Source of the DNA: Lentzea indica
GTDB taxonomy: Bacteria > Actinomycetota > Actinomycetes > Mycobacteriales > Pseudonocardiaceae
Direction: 5' to 3'
Length of the DNA: 64,000 bases
NCBI RefSeq assembly: GCF_012184385.1
Contig: NZ_VSRL01000009.1
Coordinates: forward strand, 1 to 64,000
Shown here in pieces: positions 33,507 through 41,781 of this stretch (positions within the stretch are counted from its first letter, which is position 1; each line of letters begins with the position of its first letter). A program made the translations under genes and the position numbers. The notes under the pieces were generated by a model. That model was not told the DNA's origin, did no database searches, and worked only from the letters and a program-made list of their open reading frames with translations.

Positions 33507-33876
33507 CCCACGAGTGACCAGCCCATCCGGCACAGCCTCAGTACCAGCCACACGCACCGGCGCACACAGCGGACATGCCCCCGATGTGAGCCACGTCATA
33601 CGGGGCTCGCTCCAACATCGGATCGGGTAACTCGGCCCCCGGGACAAATGCAAGGGCCAACCCGACCCTGCGTCCCACCCGCACATAACCACGGCGCCCA
33701 CCACCGCACTCCGCCCCCACCACCACACTCTGCCCCGACAACGTCACTCCGACAACGTCATATGGGGGTCCGGGGGCTCGCCCCCGGCTGGGGGTCTGGG
33801 GGCTCGGCCCCCAGAAAAAACCCGAGAGACCGACCCGGTCTGCGCATTCCGCAGACATGGGTCGGCCTCGGTCGCG
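33507..33876. other. Intergenic region before tRNA-Gly
   Basis: No gene supported. It contains CCAC-rich low-complexity sequence (33640-33740), a short direct repeat (ACAACGTCA at 33739-33759) and two strong GC hairpins at 33770-33814. Codon-like patterns in this stretch are not protein-like. Confidence 0.6.
33770..33814. terminator. Twin GC-rich hairpins
   Basis: CCGGGGGC/GCCCCCGG (33770-33787) is followed by CTGGGGGC/GCCCCCAG (33796-33814), which is followed by six A residues. On the minus strand the second hairpin is thus preceded by a T-run. Similar CTGGGGC..GCCCCAG hairpins recur at 51323-51339, suggesting a dispersed intergenic element. Confidence 0.6.
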
Positions 33877-33947
33877 AGCGGGCGACGGGAATCGAACCCG
33901 CGTAGCTAGTTTGGAAGACTAGGGCTCTACCATTGAGCTACGCCCGC
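33877..33947 (-). tRNA. tRNA-Gly(TCC)
   Basis: 71 nt on the minus strand. The acceptor stem GCGGGCG pairs with CGCCCGC, D-arm AGCTC..GAGC, anticodon stem CTAGT/ACTAG with loop CTTCCAA (anticodon TCC), and T-arm GGGTTCGATTCCC. The CCA end is not encoded. Confidence 0.96.
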
Positions 33948-34009: not shown

Positions 34010-34083
34010 CGGGGCGTGGCGCAGTTTGGTAGCGCACCCGCTTTGGGAGCGGGGGGTCGCAGGTTCAAATCCTGTCGCCCCGA
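34010..34083 (+). tRNA. tRNA-Pro(TGG)
   Basis: 74 nt. Acceptor CGGGGCG/CGCCCCG, anticodon stem CCCGC/GCGGG with loop TTTGGGA (anticodon TGG), T-arm AGGTTCAAATCCT and discriminator A. Divergent from tRNA-Gly across 62 bp. CCA not encoded. Confidence 0.96.
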
Positions 34084-34096
34084 CTGGTTGACGTTG

Positions 34097-34133: not shown

Positions 34134-34895
34134 TCATTCCACCAGGTAGCGGCTGGCCCACGCGGCGAGCACTTCTGCCACGTAAGTGGCGTCCGCGCGG
34201 TCGGTCAGCAGGTGATCGGCGCCGTCCAGTGAGACGAACGACTTGGGGTGGCGGGCCGAGTCGAAGATCAGTCTGGCGTTCTCCACTCCCACCAGGTCGT
34301 CCTGCGGCGAGTGCATGACCAGCAGTGCGCGGTTCAGCCCTGCGATGCACGCCGTCTGGTTCTGCTGGTTGATGTCGACCAGGAAGTCGTTGCTGATCCG
34401 GAACGGCCGCCCGGCCAGCAGCACCTCGGCGACGCCGAGCGCCTCGATCTCGTCTTTGGACGGTCCGAGCAGGTGCTCCACGTGGGTGGTGTTGGCGGGA
34501 GCGCCGATCGTGACGACGGCACGGACCTCCGCGACGCGGTGGGCGGCGGCCAGCACCGCCGCGCCGCCCAGTGAGTGTCCGATGAGGACGCTCGGGGCGC
34601 CGATGGTGTCGCGCAGGTGGTTGGCGGCGCACACCAGGTCGTCGACGTTGGACGTGAACGTGGTGTTCGCGAAGTCGCCGTCGGACTGGCCGAGGCCGGT
34701 GAAGTCGAAGCGCAGCACCGCCACGCCGCGTGCGGCGAGCTCGCGGGAGATCCGTGTGGCGGCCACCGAGTCCTTGCCGCAGGTGAAGCAGTGCGCGAAC
34801 ACGGCGGTCGCCACGACCTCTCCGGCAGGCAGTTCGAGCCGGCCGGCCAGCGACTGCCCGTCGGTGCCCGCGAAGACCGCTTTCCTGTTGTCCAT
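34134..34895 (-). CDS. Alpha/beta hydrolase (OsmC-fusion type hydrolase domain)
   Basis: 253 residues. Nucleophile Ser108 in GHSLGGAA, oxyanion region FAHCFTCGKDS, Asp near SPQDDLVGV and His in GADHLLT. The closest pattern I know is the N-terminal hydrolase half of alpha/beta hydrolase-OsmC fusions, but here the OsmC half is absent. Soluble, no signal peptide. Divergent from the 588-residue unknown gene with start codons 8 bp apart, so both promoters overlap the coding starts. Confidence 0.85.
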   Translation of the reverse strand: MDNRKAVFAGTDGQSLAGRLELPAGEVVATAVFAHCFTCGKDSVAATRISRELAARGVAVLRFDFTGLGQSDGDFANTTFTSNVDDLVCAANHLRDTIGAPSVLIGHSLGGAAVLAAAHRVAEVRAVVTIGAPANTTHVEHLLGPSKDEIEALGVAEVLLAGRPFRISNDFLVDINQQNQTACIAGLNRALLVMHSPQDDLVGVENARLIFDSARHPKSFVSLDGADHLLTDRADATYVAEVLAAWASRYLVE

Positions 34896-34902
34896 GAAGT
34901 CT

Positions 34903-36669
34903 ATGGTGCGTCACGTGCGCTACCAGTACCTCGACGCCCGGCTGCGGCACGCGTTCGACGAGGCCGGGCTCGATCGCGGGCAACGGGCGTTGCTGCAGGG
35001 CGTGCTGCGCGCTCTCGACCCCGACGCGCACCTCGGCGAACACGTGGCGGGCCTCAACAGTGCGTTCCTCGCCGTCACCCGCGCGCAGGCCGCGCTCGAG
35101 AGTCACGCCACCGAGGACCAGCCGCGGTGGAACCTGTTGCGGCGCATCATCGCCACGTCGCTCGCGTGCATGGACGCCGCCAGGCCCGCGTACGCCCGCG
35201 GTGGGGCCAAGGAGCTCGCCGCGGCGCGCAAGGTTCTCCTCGACGTCGACGCGGCCGTCGCGGCGGACGGCCAGAAGCTCGATCCGCAGGTCACGGCGGC
35301 GGCTGCCGCGAAGCTCGACCCGGCAGCGCTCAAGGCAGCGGTGCAGGGGTGGATCACTCCACTGTGGAACGGTGTCGAACTTCCCTTGCGCGCCAGGATG
35401 ATCGCCGAAGTCGCGGTCGTCGTGGCGGTGCACGGCCGCGACGGCAGGCAGCTTCGCGCGGACCTGCTGAGGTGGCTCAAGAAGCCGGGAGGCCTCAAAG
35501 AGGTGCTCTGGCCGGACGAGCGCAAGCACGTCGTGGCGCTCGTGGTGAGAGGCGCGCGGGTCCTGCGACACCTGGACGAGCTGCTGCCGCAGGCGAGGCA
35601 GGAGCCGTTGCACCGCAACCGGTTGCCGAAAGACGACTTCCTGAAGGAGGCCGTGAACGGCTCGTCGGTGCTGGTGCGGCTGCCGGTCGACGCGGCCGAC
35701 ACGCACACGGCGGCGCTGCGGGGCCGGCGGATCCTCAACGAGGTGCTCGACCAGTACGCGGCGGGGGAGCGGCTCACCGAGCTGAACATCGCGCCGGTCT
35801 GGCAGGTCAGTGGCCCTGGCGGACGGGTCACGCGCGGCACAGAGCACCAGCGCACGGTCGGCAACGCCTACCCGCTCACCGCGTACTGGGCCGCCGAGCT
35901 GCGGAGTGCGATGCGGGTGGCGAACCTGGCCCGCCAGGTCGACGCGCCGATGGCCAGCGCAGGGCTCGCGTGGAGCGCGCTGGAGGCGACGGGGCTCGAC
36001 CCGAGCAAGATCGCGTGGCTGGCCAAGGCGTGCGCGCTGCAGATGTTGCGGCAGCACCTGATCAGCCTGCACGTGGTGGTCACCAACCACGACGACCAGC
36101 TGCGGCTCCCGCTCGCCGCGCAGGTGCCGACAATCGGAGTGAAGCACCACCTGAGGTCGGTTGACGCCTGGCTGGAGGTGCTGATCAGGCACAATCGCCC
36201 GAACGAGCAGCTCACAGCCGCCCAGGAAGCCGTCACGGCGCTGGCCGAGAACGAGGGTGGCCTGGTGCAGGACCTGGTGGAGCTCTGGCGGAGCAGGCTC
36301 GCGGACTCGAAGGACCTCGCCGGCTGGCTGCGCGAACAGGAGAACACCGCCGCCGCGGTGCTGGAATGGCTCTACGTCACCAGGAATCTGGCGTTTCACG
36401 CGGGACGGTTCGCGTCACCCGCCGACACTCTCACGGCACATGCGGGGCAGGCCGTCGCCGATCTGACGCTGGAGTTCCTCGGAAACTGGCGGACCGTCGA
36501 AAGACAGCGGAGCCGGCAGGAGACCTCCACGGTGGAGATCTACCGCCGGCTCGCGCAACGACAAGACCAGCTGGTGGCCCGGCTCAAGCGAGCGGGGTCC
36601 GTTCGCAGGCTCAGCGTCGAGGACATCTCCGGCCCCGACGAGAAGTGGTGGTCCAGGGGCAACAGCTAG
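34903..36669 (+). CDS. Large helical protein with C-terminal HEPN-like RNxxxH motif
   Basis: 588 residues from ATG 34903 (ATG 34894 in frame; no ribosome site, so probably leaderless). No known domain recognised over most of the length; it is strongly alpha-helical and charged. Near the C-terminus TRNLAFHAGRF places Arg494-Asn-Leu-Ala-Phe-His499, the Rx4-6H pattern of HEPN RNases, in a helix context (VLEWLYVTRNLAFHAG) like ApeA/MAE-28990 HEPN domains. HEPN proteins often act in phage defence or RNA cleavage. It lies beside two tRNA genes and overlaps the convergent binding-protein gene by 4 bp. The HEPN link is inference from one motif. Confidence 0.65.
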   Translation: MVRHVRYQYLDARLRHAFDEAGLDRGQRALLQGVLRALDPDAHLGEHVAGLNSAFLAVTRAQAALESHATEDQPRWNLLRRIIATSLACMDAARPAYARGGAKELAAARKVLLDVDAAVAADGQKLDPQVTAAAAAKLDPAALKAAVQGWITPLWNGVELPLRARMIAEVAVVVAVHGRDGRQLRADLLRWLKKPGGLKEVLWPDERKHVVALVVRGARVLRHLDELLPQARQEPLHRNRLPKDDFLKEAVNGSSVLVRLPVDAADTHTAALRGRRILNEVLDQYAAGERLTELNIAPVWQVSGPGGRVTRGTEHQRTVGNAYPLTAYWAAELRSAMRVANLARQVDAPMASAGLAWSALEATGLDPSKIAWLAKACALQMLRQHLISLHVVVTNHDDQLRLPLAAQVPTIGVKHHLRSVDAWLEVLIRHNRPNEQLTAAQEAVTALAENEGGLVQDLVELWRSRLADSKDLAGWLREQENTAAAVLEWLYVTRNLAFHAGRFASPADTLTAHAGQAVADLTLEFLGNWRTVERQRSRQETSTVEIYRRLAQRQDQLVARLKRAGSVRRLSVEDISGPDEKWWSRGNS

Positions 36670-37634
36670 GGCTTGGCCTTCGTGAGCCAGTCGTCGACCC
36701 GGTCGGGGTTCGCCTCGATCCACCGCCGCGCCGCCTCGTCCGGCGACATCTTGTACTTGGCGATGAACGACGCGACCGCGTCCTGCTCGTCGTTGCTCCA
36801 CTGGAAGTTCTGGATCAGCCGGGCGGCGGGACCGCCCTTGTCCATGAACTTCTTGGAAGCGATCTTGTCGAGCTCGTAACGCGGGTAGTCGCAGGCGACC
36901 TTGGCCGCGTCCGCGTCACAGCCGGCCTTGTACTCGGGCAGGTCGATCTTGACCAGCTCGATGTCGAGGTGCAGCCACTGCGGCTCGAAGAAGTAGCCGA
37001 TCAGCGGCGTCTTCTTCTCCTCGGCCTGGCGGAACGCCTTGATCGACGCCAGCTCGCTGCCCGCGTAGACGACCTTGTAGTTGAGACCCAGGTTCTTCAC
37101 CAGCGCCTCGTCGTTGGTCACGTACGAGGGGTCGCCGTCGAGCACCTGGCCCTTGCCCTCGGACTGCGGGGTGACGAACAGGTTCGCGTACTTGTTGAGG
37201 TTCTGCCAGTTCGTGATGTCCGGGTAGGTCTTCTTCATCCACGGCGGCACGTACCAGCCGATCACGCCCTTGTTGCCGGACGGGCCGACCCGTACGGCGG
37301 TGCGCCTCTCGTCGATGTACTTCTGCTTCAGGTCCTCGTGACCCCAGTTCTCCAGGATCACGTCGATCTCGCCGGAGTCGAGTCCCTGCCAGGCGGTCTG
37401 CTCGTCGACTTCCTTCTTGGTCACCTTGCAGCCGAGCCGCTTCTCGGCGAGGTACGCGATCACGGCCGCGTTCGCCTCGTAGCCGACCCACGGGTTGACC
37501 GCGATGGTGATGGAGTCGCAGGGCTCTGTCGGTGCTGCCGAACTGGAGCGCGGTGAAGACGACGTCGATCCACCGCCACATCCGGCAATTGTCAACACGA
37601 GCGTGATTGCCAGAGCGATTCTGGGGGCTTGCAC
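36666..37634 (-). CDS. proX: Glycine betaine/choline-type ABC substrate-binding lipoprotein (copy 1)
   Basis: 322 residues. The signal peptide ends in lipobox TIAGC (Cys19), followed by a Ser-rich linker and the OpuAC fold: [72 protein letters not shown]. It binds a quaternary amine osmolyte outside the membrane. Divergent from the ATPase gene across 210 bp and clearly paralogous to the binding protein at 40819-41781. Its stop overlaps the upstream plus-strand gene by 4 bp. Confidence 0.9.
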
Positions 37635-37844
37635 GAACAGCTCCTCGTCGAGGGGAACAGCGGTACAGGAGACCGCTCAGTTCAGCTTTTCCCGATCGAT
37701 CACACTGCGTCAAGTCATGGGATGATTGGTTGTCCACAAAGGACGGAATTTGTAGCAGCCCTTGACCGCATCCGTGCGAAGGTTAATGCTGGCGCGCATC
37801 GAGGAACGGTGTGCGTAGTCCGCAACAGGTCGGAGTGGTTTGGC

Positions 37845-38867
37845 GTGGATCCCGTGATTTCGGTCAGGGACCTGTGGAAGGTGTTCGGCCCGAACGCGTC
37901 TCAAGTGGTGGCATCGGACGAGCTGAAATCGTTGTCACGGCAGGAGCTGATGGACCGCACAGGTGCCGTCGCCGCCGTGCGCGGAGTGGACTTCGACGTC
38001 GCTCCTGGTGAGATGTTCGTGGTCATGGGCCTGTCCGGGTCTGGAAAGTCCACACTGGTCCGTTGCCTCACGCGGCTGGTGGAGCCGACCGCGGGCACGA
38101 TCATGTTCGAAGGCGAGAACATTCTCGAGGCGGACGCCAAACGTCTGCGTGACCTGCGCAGAAACAAGTTCTCCATGGTGTTCCAGCACTTCGGTCTGCT
38201 CCCGCACCGGACCGTGGCCGACAACGTCGGTTACGGGCTGGAAATCCGCGGGGTACCGCGGGCGAAACGTGGAGAGCGGTCACAGGAAGTGATCGACCTC
38301 GTGGGTCTCACCGGTAATGAGAAGTCCTATCCGGACCAACTCTCCGGCGGTATGCAGCAGCGCGTCGGTCTCGCGCGCGCCCTCGCCGGTGATCCAGATG
38401 TATTGTTTTTCGATGAACCTTTCTCCGCGTTGGACCCGTTGATCCGGCGCGACATGCAGTCAGAGGTCATCAGGCTGCACCGCGAGGTCGGCAAGACGAT
38501 GGTCTTCATCACCCACGACCTGAGCGAGGCGCTCAAGCTGGGCGACCGCATCCTGATCATGCGTGACGGCCAGGTCGTGCAGGTCGGCACCGGCGACGAG
38601 CTGGTCGGCGCGCCCGCGGACGACTACGTGCGCGACTTCGTGAAGGACGTGCCGCGCTCCAACGTGCTGACGCTCAAGTGGATCATGCGCCCGCCGCGTC
38701 CCGACGACGAGCTGGACGGACCCGAGCTCGGGCCGGAAACCGTTGTGCGTGAAGCCGTGCGCAGCGTGCTCAGCGCTGACAAGCCGGTGAAGGTCGTGCA
38801 GGACGGCGAACTGCTCGGCGTGGTGGCGGACGAGGAGATCCTCGGGGTCGTCGCCGGGGAGGCGTGA
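37845..38867 (+). CDS. proV: Glycine betaine/proline ABC transporter ATP-binding protein
   Basis: 340 residues from GTG 37845 (GTG 37854 possible). Walker [10 protein letters not shown] (residues 62-70), Q-loop [14 protein letters not shown], signature [16 protein letters not shown], Walker [15 protein letters not shown] and switch His in FITHD. After the ATPase core, residues about 255-340 form the short ProV/OpuA C-terminal CBS-like regulatory part ([22 protein letters not shown]). It drives osmolyte import, and its stop overlaps the permease start by one base (TGATG). Confidence 0.93.
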
Positions 38868-40807
38868 TGGTCGCCGTTCCCGCGCCGCGGCAGGTCCCAC
38901 TGTTTTTCGATCGATACAAGCGGCTTGTGATCGTCGGCGGGATCGTGCTCGCGTGGCTGGTGCTGTGGCTGGTGTTCCGCAACTTCGGGACGCTGCCGCT
39001 GGACGCCTCCGAGCTGACCCCGCTGCACCGGTGGGTCAACAGCGTCAACGACGCGATCGGCGCGTCCAGGAACTCCAACCCGGTGTTCCTGTACTTCTTC
39101 AACGAGATCCGGCTCGTCATCGACGAGTTCGTGACCTTCATCCAGGCGTTGATCGCGCAGCCGTCGTTCGGCAGGCCGGTGCCGATGATCGGCTGGCTCG
39201 GCGTGGTCGGGATCGCGGGCTTCGTCAGCCTCGCGGTCGCCGGCTGGCGGGTCGCGCTGCTCGCCATCGCGGGCTTCGTGTTCCTCGGACTGCAGGGCCT
39301 GTGGCAGGAGAGCATGGACACGCTCTCGCTGACGCTCGCCGCGGTCGTCATCTCGTTGCTCATCGGCATTCCGCTGGGAATCTGGGCCGGCCTGTCCGAT
39401 CGGGCCAACCGGGTACTGACGCCGGTGCTCGACTTCATGCAGACCATGCCGACGTTCGTCTACCTGGCACCGTTGACGTTGTTCTTCCTGATCGGCCCTG
39501 CCTCGGCGACGATCGCCACGCTGATCTACGCCGCGCCGCCGGCGATCCGCATCACCGCGCACGCCATCCGCTCAGTGCCGCGCACCACGGTCGAAGCGAG
39601 CGAATCTCTTGGCGCGACCCGGCAACAGACGCTCGTGAAGGTGCTGCTGCCGTCGTCGCGCAAGACCATCGTGCTCGGCATCAACCAGACGATCATGGCC
39701 GCGCTGTCCATGGTCACGATCGCCGCGCTGATCGACGCGCCGGGTCTCGGCAAGACCGTGGTGAAGGCGTTGCAGACGCTCGACGTCGGCACGGCGTTCA
39801 ACGCGGGCCTGGCGATCGTGGTGCTGGCGATCGTGCTGGACCGCGTGACGACCGCCGCGACCGAACGCCGCTCGCTCCCGCGCTGGGCGCTGTTCAGCGG
39901 CCTCGGCGTCACGGGCGTCTCCGTGTACTTCTCGTACACCTACCTGTGGGCGGCGGAGTTCCCGACGGACGTGGAGATCGGCAGCTCCATCCGGCAGGGC
40001 GCGACGGCCGTGACGGAGTGGGTGCAGGACTCGCTGCCGGTGATCACGGGCGGCTTCAAGGACTTCGTCACGTTCGCGCTGATCAACCCGTTGCAGGCGC
40101 TGCTGGCGGAGTCGCCGTGGTTCCTGGTGGCCCTGGTGATCGTGGCGCTGTCGTTCATGATCGGTGGCCTGAAGTCCGCTGTGGTCTCCGCGGTGTGCCT
40201 CGGTCTGTTGGTCGCGACCGGCCTGTGGCAGGACTCGATGATCACGCTGGCGTCCACTCTGGTCGCCACGATCATGGTGATGGTCCTCGGCGTCGTGGTC
40301 GGCGTGTGGATGGGCCGCAGCAGGCGCGCGGACCGGGCCATCCGGCCGATTCTCGACGCCGCACAGGTGATGCCCGCGTTCGTGTACTTGGTGCCGTTCC
40401 TCGCTTTGTTCGCCGCGTCCCGCTTCACCGCGATCATCGCGGCCGTGGTGTTCGCAGCCCCGGTCGCCATCAAGATCATCGCGGACGGTGTGCGCGCGGT
40501 GTCGCCCGCGACCGTCGAAGCTTCCACGGCACTCGGTTCCAGCTCGTGGCAGACGATCGTGAAGGTGCAGCTGCCGATGGCGCGCGGGGCGTTGACCCTC
40601 GCCGCCAACCAGGGGCTGATCTACGTGCTCTCGATGGTCGTCGTCGGCGGTCTCGTCGGCGCCGGCGCGCTCGGCTACGACGTCGTCGCCGGATTCTCGC
40701 AAGGCCAGTTGTACGGCAAGGGGCTCGCGGCCGGTGTCGCGATCGTCGTGCTGGGCGTGATGCTCGACCGCCTCACCCAGGCGGCCGCCAAGCGGTGGAC
40801 CAACTAG
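38867..40807 (+). CDS. proW: Duplicated (fused) ProW-type ABC permease
   Basis: 646 residues from ATG 38867, coupled to the ATPase stop as TGATG; GTG 38864 is alternative. Two complete BPD_transp_1 permease domains lie in one chain: the first holds EASESLGATRQQTLVKVLLPSSRKTI and the second EASTALGSSSWQTIVKVQLPMARGAL (the EAA loops that dock on the ATPase). Each has about six helices around it. One fused polypeptide can thus replace a homodimeric permease. Part of the betaine-type importer with genes on either side. Confidence 0.92.
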   Translation: MVAVPAPRQVPLFFDRYKRLVIVGGIVLAWLVLWLVFRNFGTLPLDASELTPLHRWVNSVNDAIGASRNSNPVFLYFFNEIRLVIDEFVTFIQALIAQPSFGRPVPMIGWLGVVGIAGFVSLAVAGWRVALLAIAGFVFLGLQGLWQESMDTLSLTLAAVVISLLIGIPLGIWAGLSDRANRVLTPVLDFMQTMPTFVYLAPLTLFFLIGPASATIATLIYAAPPAIRITAHAIRSVPRTTVEASESLGATRQQTLVKVLLPSSRKTIVLGINQTIMAALSMVTIAALIDAPGLGKTVVKALQTLDVGTAFNAGLAIVVLAIVLDRVTTAATERRSLPRWALFSGLGVTGVSVYFSYTYLWAAEFPTDVEIGSSIRQGATAVTEWVQDSLPVITGGFKDFVTFALINPLQALLAESPWFLVALVIVALSFMIGGLKSAVVSAVCLGLLVATGLWQDSMITLASTLVATIMVMVLGVVVGVWMGRSRRADRAIRPILDAAQVMPAFVYLVPFLALFAASRFTAIIAAVVFAAPVAIKIIADGVRAVSPATVEASTALGSSSWQTIVKVQLPMARGALTLAANQGLIYVLSMVVVGGLVGAGALGYDVVAGFSQGQLYGKGLAAGVAIVVLGVMLDRLTQAAAKRWTN

Positions 40808-40818
40808 GAGGTTCGGAA

Positions 40819-41781
40819 GTGGCTAGGCACAACGTGCTGGGAACTGTGAGCGCAGGGCTCGTGGCGCTCGTGGTACTGGCCGGTTGCGGTGGCGCCAAGG
40901 TCGGTGACACCTCGTCGGGTGCGGCCGGTGACTGCGGCACGTTCAACCTCGCGATCAACCCGTGGGTCGGTTACGAGGCAAACGCGGCAGTGCTCGCGTA
41001 CGTGGCCGAGAAGGAGCTCAAGTGCAAGGTGACCAAGAAGGAGCTCAAGGAAGAGGTCGCCTGGCAGGGCTTCGGCACCGGTGAGGTCGACGCCGTCGTC
41101 GAGAACTGGGGCCATGACGACCTGCGCAAGAAGTACATCGACGAGCAGAAGACCGCCGTCAGCGCGGGCTCGACGGGTGTGAAGGGCCAGATCGGCTGGT
41201 ACGTGCCGCCGTGGCTCGCCAAGGAGCACCCCGACATCCTCGACTGGAACAACCTCAACAAGTACGCCGACCAGTTCAAGACGTCCGAGTCCGGCGACAA
41301 GGGCCAGCTGCTCGACGGCGACCCGTCGTTCGTGACCAACGACGAGGCTCTGGTGAAGAACCTGAACCTCAACTACAAGGTCGTCTACGGCGGCAGCGAG
41401 ACCGCTCTGATCCAGGCGTTCCGCCAGGCGGAGAAGGACAAGAAGTGGGTCATCGGCTACTTCTACTCGCCGCAGTGGCTGCTCAACGAGATCAAGCTCG
41501 CGAAGGTGAAGCTGCCCGAGTACAAGGCGGGCTGTGACGCCGACGCCGAGAAGGTCGCCTGCGACTACCCGGACTACGACCTCGACAAGATCGTGTCCAA
41601 GAAGTTCGCCGACGCCAACGGCCCGGCGTTCCAGTTGGTCAAGAACTTCAAGTGGACCAACGAGGACCAGAACACGGTCGCGAAGTACATCGCCGAGGAC
41701 AAGATGAAGCCGGAGGACGCCGCCAAGAAGTGGGCGGAGGCCAACGCCGACAAGGTGAAGGCCTGGCTGGCCAAGGCGTAG
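40819..41781 (+). CDS. proX: Glycine betaine/choline-type ABC substrate-binding lipoprotein (copy 2)
   Basis: 320 residues from GTG 40819, with AGGAGG seven bases upstream. Lipobox VLAGC (Cys23). The mature part repeats the copy 1 landmarks ([107 protein letters not shown]). It is 11 bp after the permease gene and so is the operon's own binding protein. Several dispersed differences from copy 1 suggest an old duplication with possible change of ligand. Confidence 0.92.
   Translation: MARHNVLGTVSAGLVALVVLAGCGGAKVGDTSSGAAGDCGTFNLAINPWVGYEANAAVLAYVAEKELKCKVTKKELKEEVAWQGFGTGEVDAVVENWGHDDLRKKYIDEQKTAVSAGSTGVKGQIGWYVPPWLAKEHPDILDWNNLNKYADQFKTSESGDKGQLLDGDPSFVTNDEALVKNLNLNYKVVYGGSETALIQAFRQAEKDKKWVIGYFYSPQWLLNEIKLAKVKLPEYKAGCDADAEKVACDYPDYDLDKIVSKKFADANGPAFQLVKNFKWTNEDQNTVAKYIAEDKMKPEDAAKKWAEANADKVKAWLAKA

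Follow-up and report, generated by a model that had tools for sequence, protein, structure and literature searches.

A resident HEPN-like gene of Lentzea and its candidate place in the HEPN ribonuclease superfamily

Results

Genes and features at the locus

The window analysed here is a stretch of 64,000 nucleotides from Lentzea indica (contig NZ_VSRL01000009.1, positions 1 to 64,000). According to its ORF translation, an open frame of 588 residues at 34903-36669 on the plus strand encodes RNLAFH at residues 494-499. Residue numbers for the motif are counted below from the GTG at 34915, which gives R490, N491 and H495 in place of the R494 to H499 obtained from the ATG at 34903. The features that matter for the argument are the following.

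33876-33947, minus strand: tRNA-Gly, near the HEPN-like gene
34010-34084, plus strand: tRNA-Pro (tgg), syntenic neighbour
34134-34895, minus strand: alpha/beta hydrolase, divergent, with 19 bases between its ATG (34895) and GTG 34915
34902-34907, plus strand: TATGGT, a -10-like box (TANNNT) 7 bases before GTG 34915, containing ATG 34903
34915-36669, plus strand: HEPN-like gene from its likeliest start, GTG 34915 (584 residues plus stop; ATG 34903 lies 12 bases earlier), from translation and start comparison
34915-35499, plus strand: N-terminal helical region, residues 1-195, without a recognised family (blocks of ten residues at pLDDT 43-89, whole model 56)
35500-35850, plus strand: middle strand/helix region, residues 196-312, candidate regulatory part
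35854-36600, plus strand: C-terminal helical domain, residues 314-562, HEPN-like by structure comparison (modelled alone, pLDDT 88.8, pTM 0.86)
36382-36399, plus strand: RNxxxH codons, R490-N491-L-A-F-H495, at the end of a long helix

The two tRNA genes and the divergent hydrolase were reported in a preliminary description of this DNA, and all three are present at these positions. On the side away from the hydrolase, an OpuAC-type binding protein recognised by Pfam is convergent with the HEPN-like gene. The same description regarded the tRNA genes as a landing zone for defence or mobile genes, a reading that the wider comparison does not support in Lentzea. In 21 named loci with close copies, the hydrolase always lies beside the HEPN-like gene, tRNA-Pro is upstream in 20 (it is reversed in one locus and more than 4 kb off in another), tRNA-Gly is kept in 18, and the binding protein follows directly downstream in 19. 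Neither 22-base tRNA end recurs within 3 mismatches on either strand of the window, and the G+C content is 0.67-0.73 over the gene versus 0.62-0.70 around it. We rejected an element integrated at the tRNA for Lentzea on the kept synteny, the missing tRNA-end repeat and the G+C values. Judged from these sequence comparisons, the tRNA genes are ordinary synteny in most Lentzea loci.

We looked for an empty site in two genomes from other genera, those whose hydrolase matches ranked highest (65% and 47%); neither tRNA, and not one of the other six query proteins, lay within about 8 kb. Outside the syntenic set, no partner gene recurred among 24 loci in a scan with a crude gene caller based on codon-position G+C, which missed genes and returned a single gene at one locus. 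Small groups of loci have neighbours in common, among them pyruvate formate-lyase-like genes and BTAD regulators.

Two further observations concern the neighbours themselves. The genes at 36666-37634 (minus), 37809-38867 (plus), 38927-40807 (plus) and 40990-41781 (plus) look by eye like an ABC-transporter set, in which an ATPase gene and a long gene for a putative permease lie between those of two related, oppositely oriented binding proteins, the first with the OpuAC match. The hydrolase is broken in two genomes of the Lentzea group (locus L170 in G007 and L173 in G008), by an in-frame TGA in one and a split over two frames in the other, and the HEPN-like gene is open in both.

The start of the gene

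The preliminary description gave a protein of 588 residues whose start has no ribosome site. The frame is real, but the start is more likely GTG 34915, giving 584 residues. The codon corresponding to ATG 34903 is missing in 8 of the 24 genus loci, seven of which carry an in-frame TAG there (L009, L010, L016, L017, L018, L023 and L024; L022 has another codon), while the GTG at residue 5 of the 588-residue frame is kept in 24/24. In 42 of 46 rows (exceptions L089, L090, L099 and L100) and in seven of eight additional rows (exception L105), a TANNNT box stands 6-7 bases 5' of the start. Because two of the additional rows (L114 and L118) duplicate proteins counted before, 47 of 52 distinct homologues have the box; the rows share kinship, and the count is therefore no probability. 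Of the 3856 ATG/GTG sites on the two strands of the window, 8 have such a box at either spacing. Among distant relatives the box is kept while the bases flanking it vary.

A TANNNT box about 12 bases upstream is described in PMC3160421 as a mark of leaderless genes, which are frequent in Actinobacteria. Since ATG 34903 lies inside the -10-like box and TANNNT is kept before the start, the HEPN-like gene is probably leaderless, and a leaderless start would explain the absent ribosome site. A sigma-70 scan, which demands a -35 box, found no promoter. From the start comparison, GTG 34915 is the most likely start.

Conservation of the RNxxxH motif

The RNxxxH motif noticed in the preliminary description is conserved together with a glycine as RNxxxHxG in 51 of 51 distinct homologues, those outside the genus being just 27-44% identical to the window protein. 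The description had the protein end in the motif helix, which does not hold: 89 residues follow the motif, with two further predicted helices. In an alignment of 34 diverse rows, two of which repeat others, W353, E357, Q376, R379, R490, N491, H495, G497, D516, E520 and W525 are invariant in 34/34. The middle region has its own invariant positions in 26 rows, namely D262, R271, R272, E276, L278-D279-Q280-Y281, A283, G284 and R286. The best-kept stretches of the diverse set are residues 313-400 and 466-530, to which the first 95 residues are added within Lentzea.

RN-x3-H fits the HEPN motif pattern R-x4-6-H, with a polar residue (N, D or H) after the arginine. Many HEPN families, though not all, have a second conserved acidic residue, typically in Ex3[KR]; E357 and E520 are the invariant glutamates here, and E357 does not match this pattern literally, the position four after it being leucine in the window protein. 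We also observed a variable insertion, mostly of about 35-70 residues, in the C-terminal domain of most relatives outside the genus (columns about 455-530 of alignment A2). It is nearly or wholly missing in Lentzea, including Lentzea sp. NBRC 105346, and in the group L089-L092.

The gene is under purifying selection, with dN/dS of 0.13-0.24 between the window gene and 22 genus orthologues; a far relative (L024) gave 0.82 at high divergence and was left out of this range. Within the genus, the protein and the hydrolase show similar levels of identity, and the nearby ABC ATPase a higher one.

Database searches and family placement

As the preliminary description had it, the protein has no recognised family: the window protein had no significant match in Pfam, NCBIfam, PADLOC or PHROGs. 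Searching 26 homologues against Pfam and PADLOC gave just isolated weak matches and no Pfam HEPN model (E 0.5). A profile of these homologues against PDB sequences placed E. coli ApeA chains first, over the motif region and below threshold (E 0.06-0.28). The preliminary description had also suggested a search against ApeA, a link that the direct comparison did not uphold, as hhalign against six actinobacterial HEPN_Apea proteins gave E 0.06-0.07, which is not significant, and did not cover the motif. A comparison with a DUF4145 set by hhalign likewise gave no significant match. The ApeA identity is not supported, there being no PF18739 match in 26 members and no significant hhalign result. Since hhalign did not confirm ApeA and no family fitted, we filed the protein as a separate HEPN-like family. 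In the literature searched, no paper covers Lentzea together with HEPN, and no such protein is named in the titles and abstract openings examined.

The same genome (G000) also codes, at 4755-5147 of contig C105 (locus L025), for another protein, whose HEPN_Apea domain exceeds the Pfam cut-off (E 6.4e-19); this is a candidate ApeA-type gene.

Predicted fold and structural matches

Built from the 24 genus sequences, a full-length model was of low quality (pLDDT 56), and its structural matches, generic helix bundles, were discarded. It has strands between residues 203 and 309; in this low-confidence model the protein is not wholly helical, in contrast to the preliminary description. A structure-match search with residues 1-195 returned nothing significant. 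The AlphaFold2 model of residues 314-562, made from the 34 diverse rows, reached pLDDT 88.8 and pTM 0.86. The RNxxxH residues (177-182 of the model) end helix 152-183 and are followed by a loop and the next helix, 191-218. In HEPN domains the motif is placed by PMC3710099 at the end of core helix 3 and the start of the loop to helix 4; the model has extra helices, and the number of its motif helix is hence not fixed.

Foldseek of this model against PDB and viral structures gave nothing significant (best E 0.37); among the matches below significance were a viral HEPN protein of the MAE-28990 type (rank 24, E 2.6) and Csm6 6tug (rank 42, E 3.7). When 992 of the chains ranked highest by Foldseek were aligned with VIA-align 2, ranks 1-10 were Csm6, Las1 and Roquin, all HEPN proteins, and ranks 11-50 were not, judged by titles. 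Csm6 is represented by 6tug (Z 6.5, rmsd 3.8, 108 aligned residues), 8jbb (Z 5.8) and 8pe3 (Z 4.8), Las1 by 8j60_D (Z 5.2; taken as Las1 from its title and length) and 7y16_B (Z 4.2), and Roquin by 4txa (Z 5.1), 4z30 (5.0), 4qik (4.5), 4qil (4.5) and 4z31 (4.3). These Z values of 4.2-6.5 are modest, lie under the safe level of the tool for helical folds, and may reflect a common helix arrangement. The argument for a HEPN fold is drawn from the identity of the top ten matches and from the invariant motif in the right place. Structure prediction, suggested earlier as a check of the fold, supports a HEPN-like fold. The HEPN reading withstands both outcomes that the preliminary description named as refuting it, a motif lost among homologues and a fold unlike HEPN, the second with HEPN proteins as best matches at modest Z and a Foldseek result short of significance.

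Two alternatives bear directly on this evidence. The least probable of all the readings is that the motif arose by chance in a helical protein unrelated to HEPN; the lack of a significant profile or Foldseek match would suit it, as would the warning of the tool that middling Z values are frequent for helical bundles. It is opposed by the invariance of the motif at 27-44% identity outside the genus and by the change of titles between the tenth and eleventh ranks. Very probably, the protein belongs to the HEPN type.

Also improbable is a protein with a HEPN fold that, as in the corresponding part of Roquin, does not cut RNA or a nucleotide but binds it, with R, N and H as the binding residues. 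Roquin chains make up five of the top ten structural matches, and Roquin is described in PMC4614863 as having no nucleotide-binding motif and no GTP binding. Against it, the full RNxxxH is invariant in all 51 distinct homologues, and PMC3710099 reports mutations that tie the motif histidine, and sometimes the arginine, to RNase activity in RNase L, RloC and PrrC.

Distribution and signs of transfer

One copy was found in each of the 24 genus genomes searched, that of the window included. Twenty-two copies are 81-91% identical to the window protein; that of Lentzea sp. NBRC 105346 is at 36% and lacks the usual neighbours within 6 kb. Twenty of the 21 named records with close copies are titled Lentzea, the other Nocardia sp. 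NRRL S-836. At least 47 of 297 genomes of the family matched, of which 24 are the genus members, and outside the genus the gene was found in at least 23 of 273. Two genera searched whole had it in 10 of 25 and 5 of 16 genomes. The order sample gave at least 9 of 298 genomes (three are Lentzea and two are weak or short), the class sample at least 4 of 394 (one is that of the window and one is short), and the family of G635 at least 3 of 345 (G635 included). The family, order, class and G635-family searches scored 3-4 candidates per genome, which makes these counts lower bounds.

Four of the 23 family copies outside the genus (G184, G258, G269 and G276) are broken by stops, frameshifts or assembly error, and two Streptomyces plasmids carry relatives. 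The closest relative found outside the genus, at 44%, is on one of these plasmids and is nearer to the window protein than the NBRC 105346 copy; the 36% copy without its neighbours, set against this plasmid relative, points to transfer. No relative turned up in phage records, nor in viral contigs searched with conserved peptide patterns. By its distribution, the HEPN-like gene behaves as a resident in Lentzea and as an accessory gene in other genera.

The main rival to a conflict or stress RNase also concerns this distribution. A housekeeping or stress-regulation HEPN RNase could, in the manner of Las1 in rRNA processing, mature or turn over an RNA of the cell, with no defence role and with patchiness due to loss. 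Such a role is possible, though doubtful. It would accord with a gene present throughout the 24 genus genomes, with the same neighbours in 21/21 close loci and low dN/dS (0.13-0.24), with two Las1 chains among the ten best structural matches, and with a start pattern kept across genera. The signs of transfer in the NBRC 105346 copy (36%, no neighbours within 6 kb, versus 44% for the plasmid relative) argue against it, as does the lack of a match in 250 of 273 other family genomes, where the presence count is a lower bound.

Defence context

The 44% relative (locus L116) lies on a plasmid of Streptomyces sp. NBC_00513 (NZ_CP107847.1, 98668-118406) and is annotated merely as a hypothetical protein. 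Genes annotated as AbiV, DUF4145 and restriction endonuclease occur within 6 kb of it and a zeta-toxin gene about 8 kb away, and this plasmid stretch is possibly a small defence cluster.

PADLOC models of ten families matched among 124 neighbour proteins from 15 loci, nine families hitting a single protein and the tenth two, there being no background set for this comparison. The matches include one Cas3c model and WYL models. The 124 were drawn from 149 neighbours left after proteins longer than 1000 residues had been dropped; of the other 25, 17 lie at the edges of loci and 8 belong to L092, and six of these eight fall in clusters common to other loci. A defence role of the HEPN-like protein is possible.

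Discussion

An undescribed family within the HEPN superfamily is the best reading of the protein. We further propose, with a probability of about 0.55, that this family is a conflict or stress RNase of two parts made by a single gene, now resident in Lentzea. The protein would probably be a metal-independent ribonuclease whose C-terminal HEPN domain (residues about 326-560) cuts RNA by means of R490, N491 and H495. As in the superfamily, two HEPN domains would pair, probably in a dimer, and R490 and H495 would form the site of RNA cleavage. Until a signal comes, the HEPN domain may be kept inactive by the N-terminal 310 residues with their conserved D-RR-E-LDQYxAGxR module. Such an RNase of conflict or stress type, serving phage defence or growth arrest, would have moved among actinomycetes, sometimes on plasmids; in Lentzea its gene would have become resident and be passed on vertically, with translation from a leaderless mRNA.

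Several results weigh against this proposal: the Foldseek search gave no significant match, no Pfam HEPN model was found in 26 members, and hhalign gave no significant match to HEPN_Apea or DUF4145. We count against defence in particular the presence of the gene in all 24 genus genomes searched, the isolated nature of the defence-model matches and the lack of phage or viral relatives. In favour of the proposal we count the patchy distribution outside Lentzea (23 of 273), the broken copies (4 of 23) and the two plasmid copies, one of them near AbiV, DUF4145 and restriction genes. A more specific and unlikely version is an immune RNase of actinomycetes made of one protein. Its new sensor at the N-terminus, formed by the helical region and the D-RR-E-LDQYxAGxR module, would switch the HEPN nuclease, and the leaderless mRNA would permit synthesis when normal initiation is impaired, for instance during phage shut-off.

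The HEPN-like protein would add an unnamed family to an RNase superfamily that is important in bacterial immunity and growth control, and the domain and defence libraries we searched hold no entry for it. It is a candidate for a self-contained RNA cutter in stress or virus defence, and its invariant residues make point-mutant tests simple. With residence at one locus in Lentzea and patchy, plasmid-borne relatives, it offers a case of a possible conflict RNase turning into a resident gene.

Comparison with known systems

Csm6, the HEPN ribonuclease of type III CRISPR systems (6tug, 8jbb, 8pe3), gave the best structural matches, and it too has an N-terminal part before a C-terminal HEPN domain. 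The HEPN motif of EiCsm6 is given in PMC7101355 as R372-N373-H377; H377 lies 35 residues before the end of its aligned range, and H182 of our model 32 before the end of its own. In Csm6 and Csx1 a CARF domain precedes HEPN, whereas Pfam and PADLOC recognised none here.

ApeA (HEPN_Apea, PF18739; E. coli 9hxm and 9hxb) shares a length of about 600 residues, a C-terminal HEPN domain and RNxxxH. In contrast to ApeA-NTD1, described in PMC3710099 as mostly strands, residues 1-195 are helical in our low-confidence model.

Las1, a HEPN nuclease of rRNA processing that works with the kinase Grc3 according to PMC10942766, is a structural match at Z 5.2 and 4.2. Las1 has Grc3 as its partner, whereas no recurrent partner gene was found for the HEPN-like gene at 24 loci.

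The HEPN region of Roquin matches at Z 4.3-5.1. In PMC4614863 it is described as an RNA-binding region and not as a nuclease, which sets it apart from the RNase proposed here. The same source describes the HEPN bundle of Roquin as split by an inserted ROQ domain, and the HEPN-like family too has a variable insertion between helices; about 95 aligned residues spread over ranges of about 290 in the Roquin chains would fit the two halves of such a split HEPN domain.
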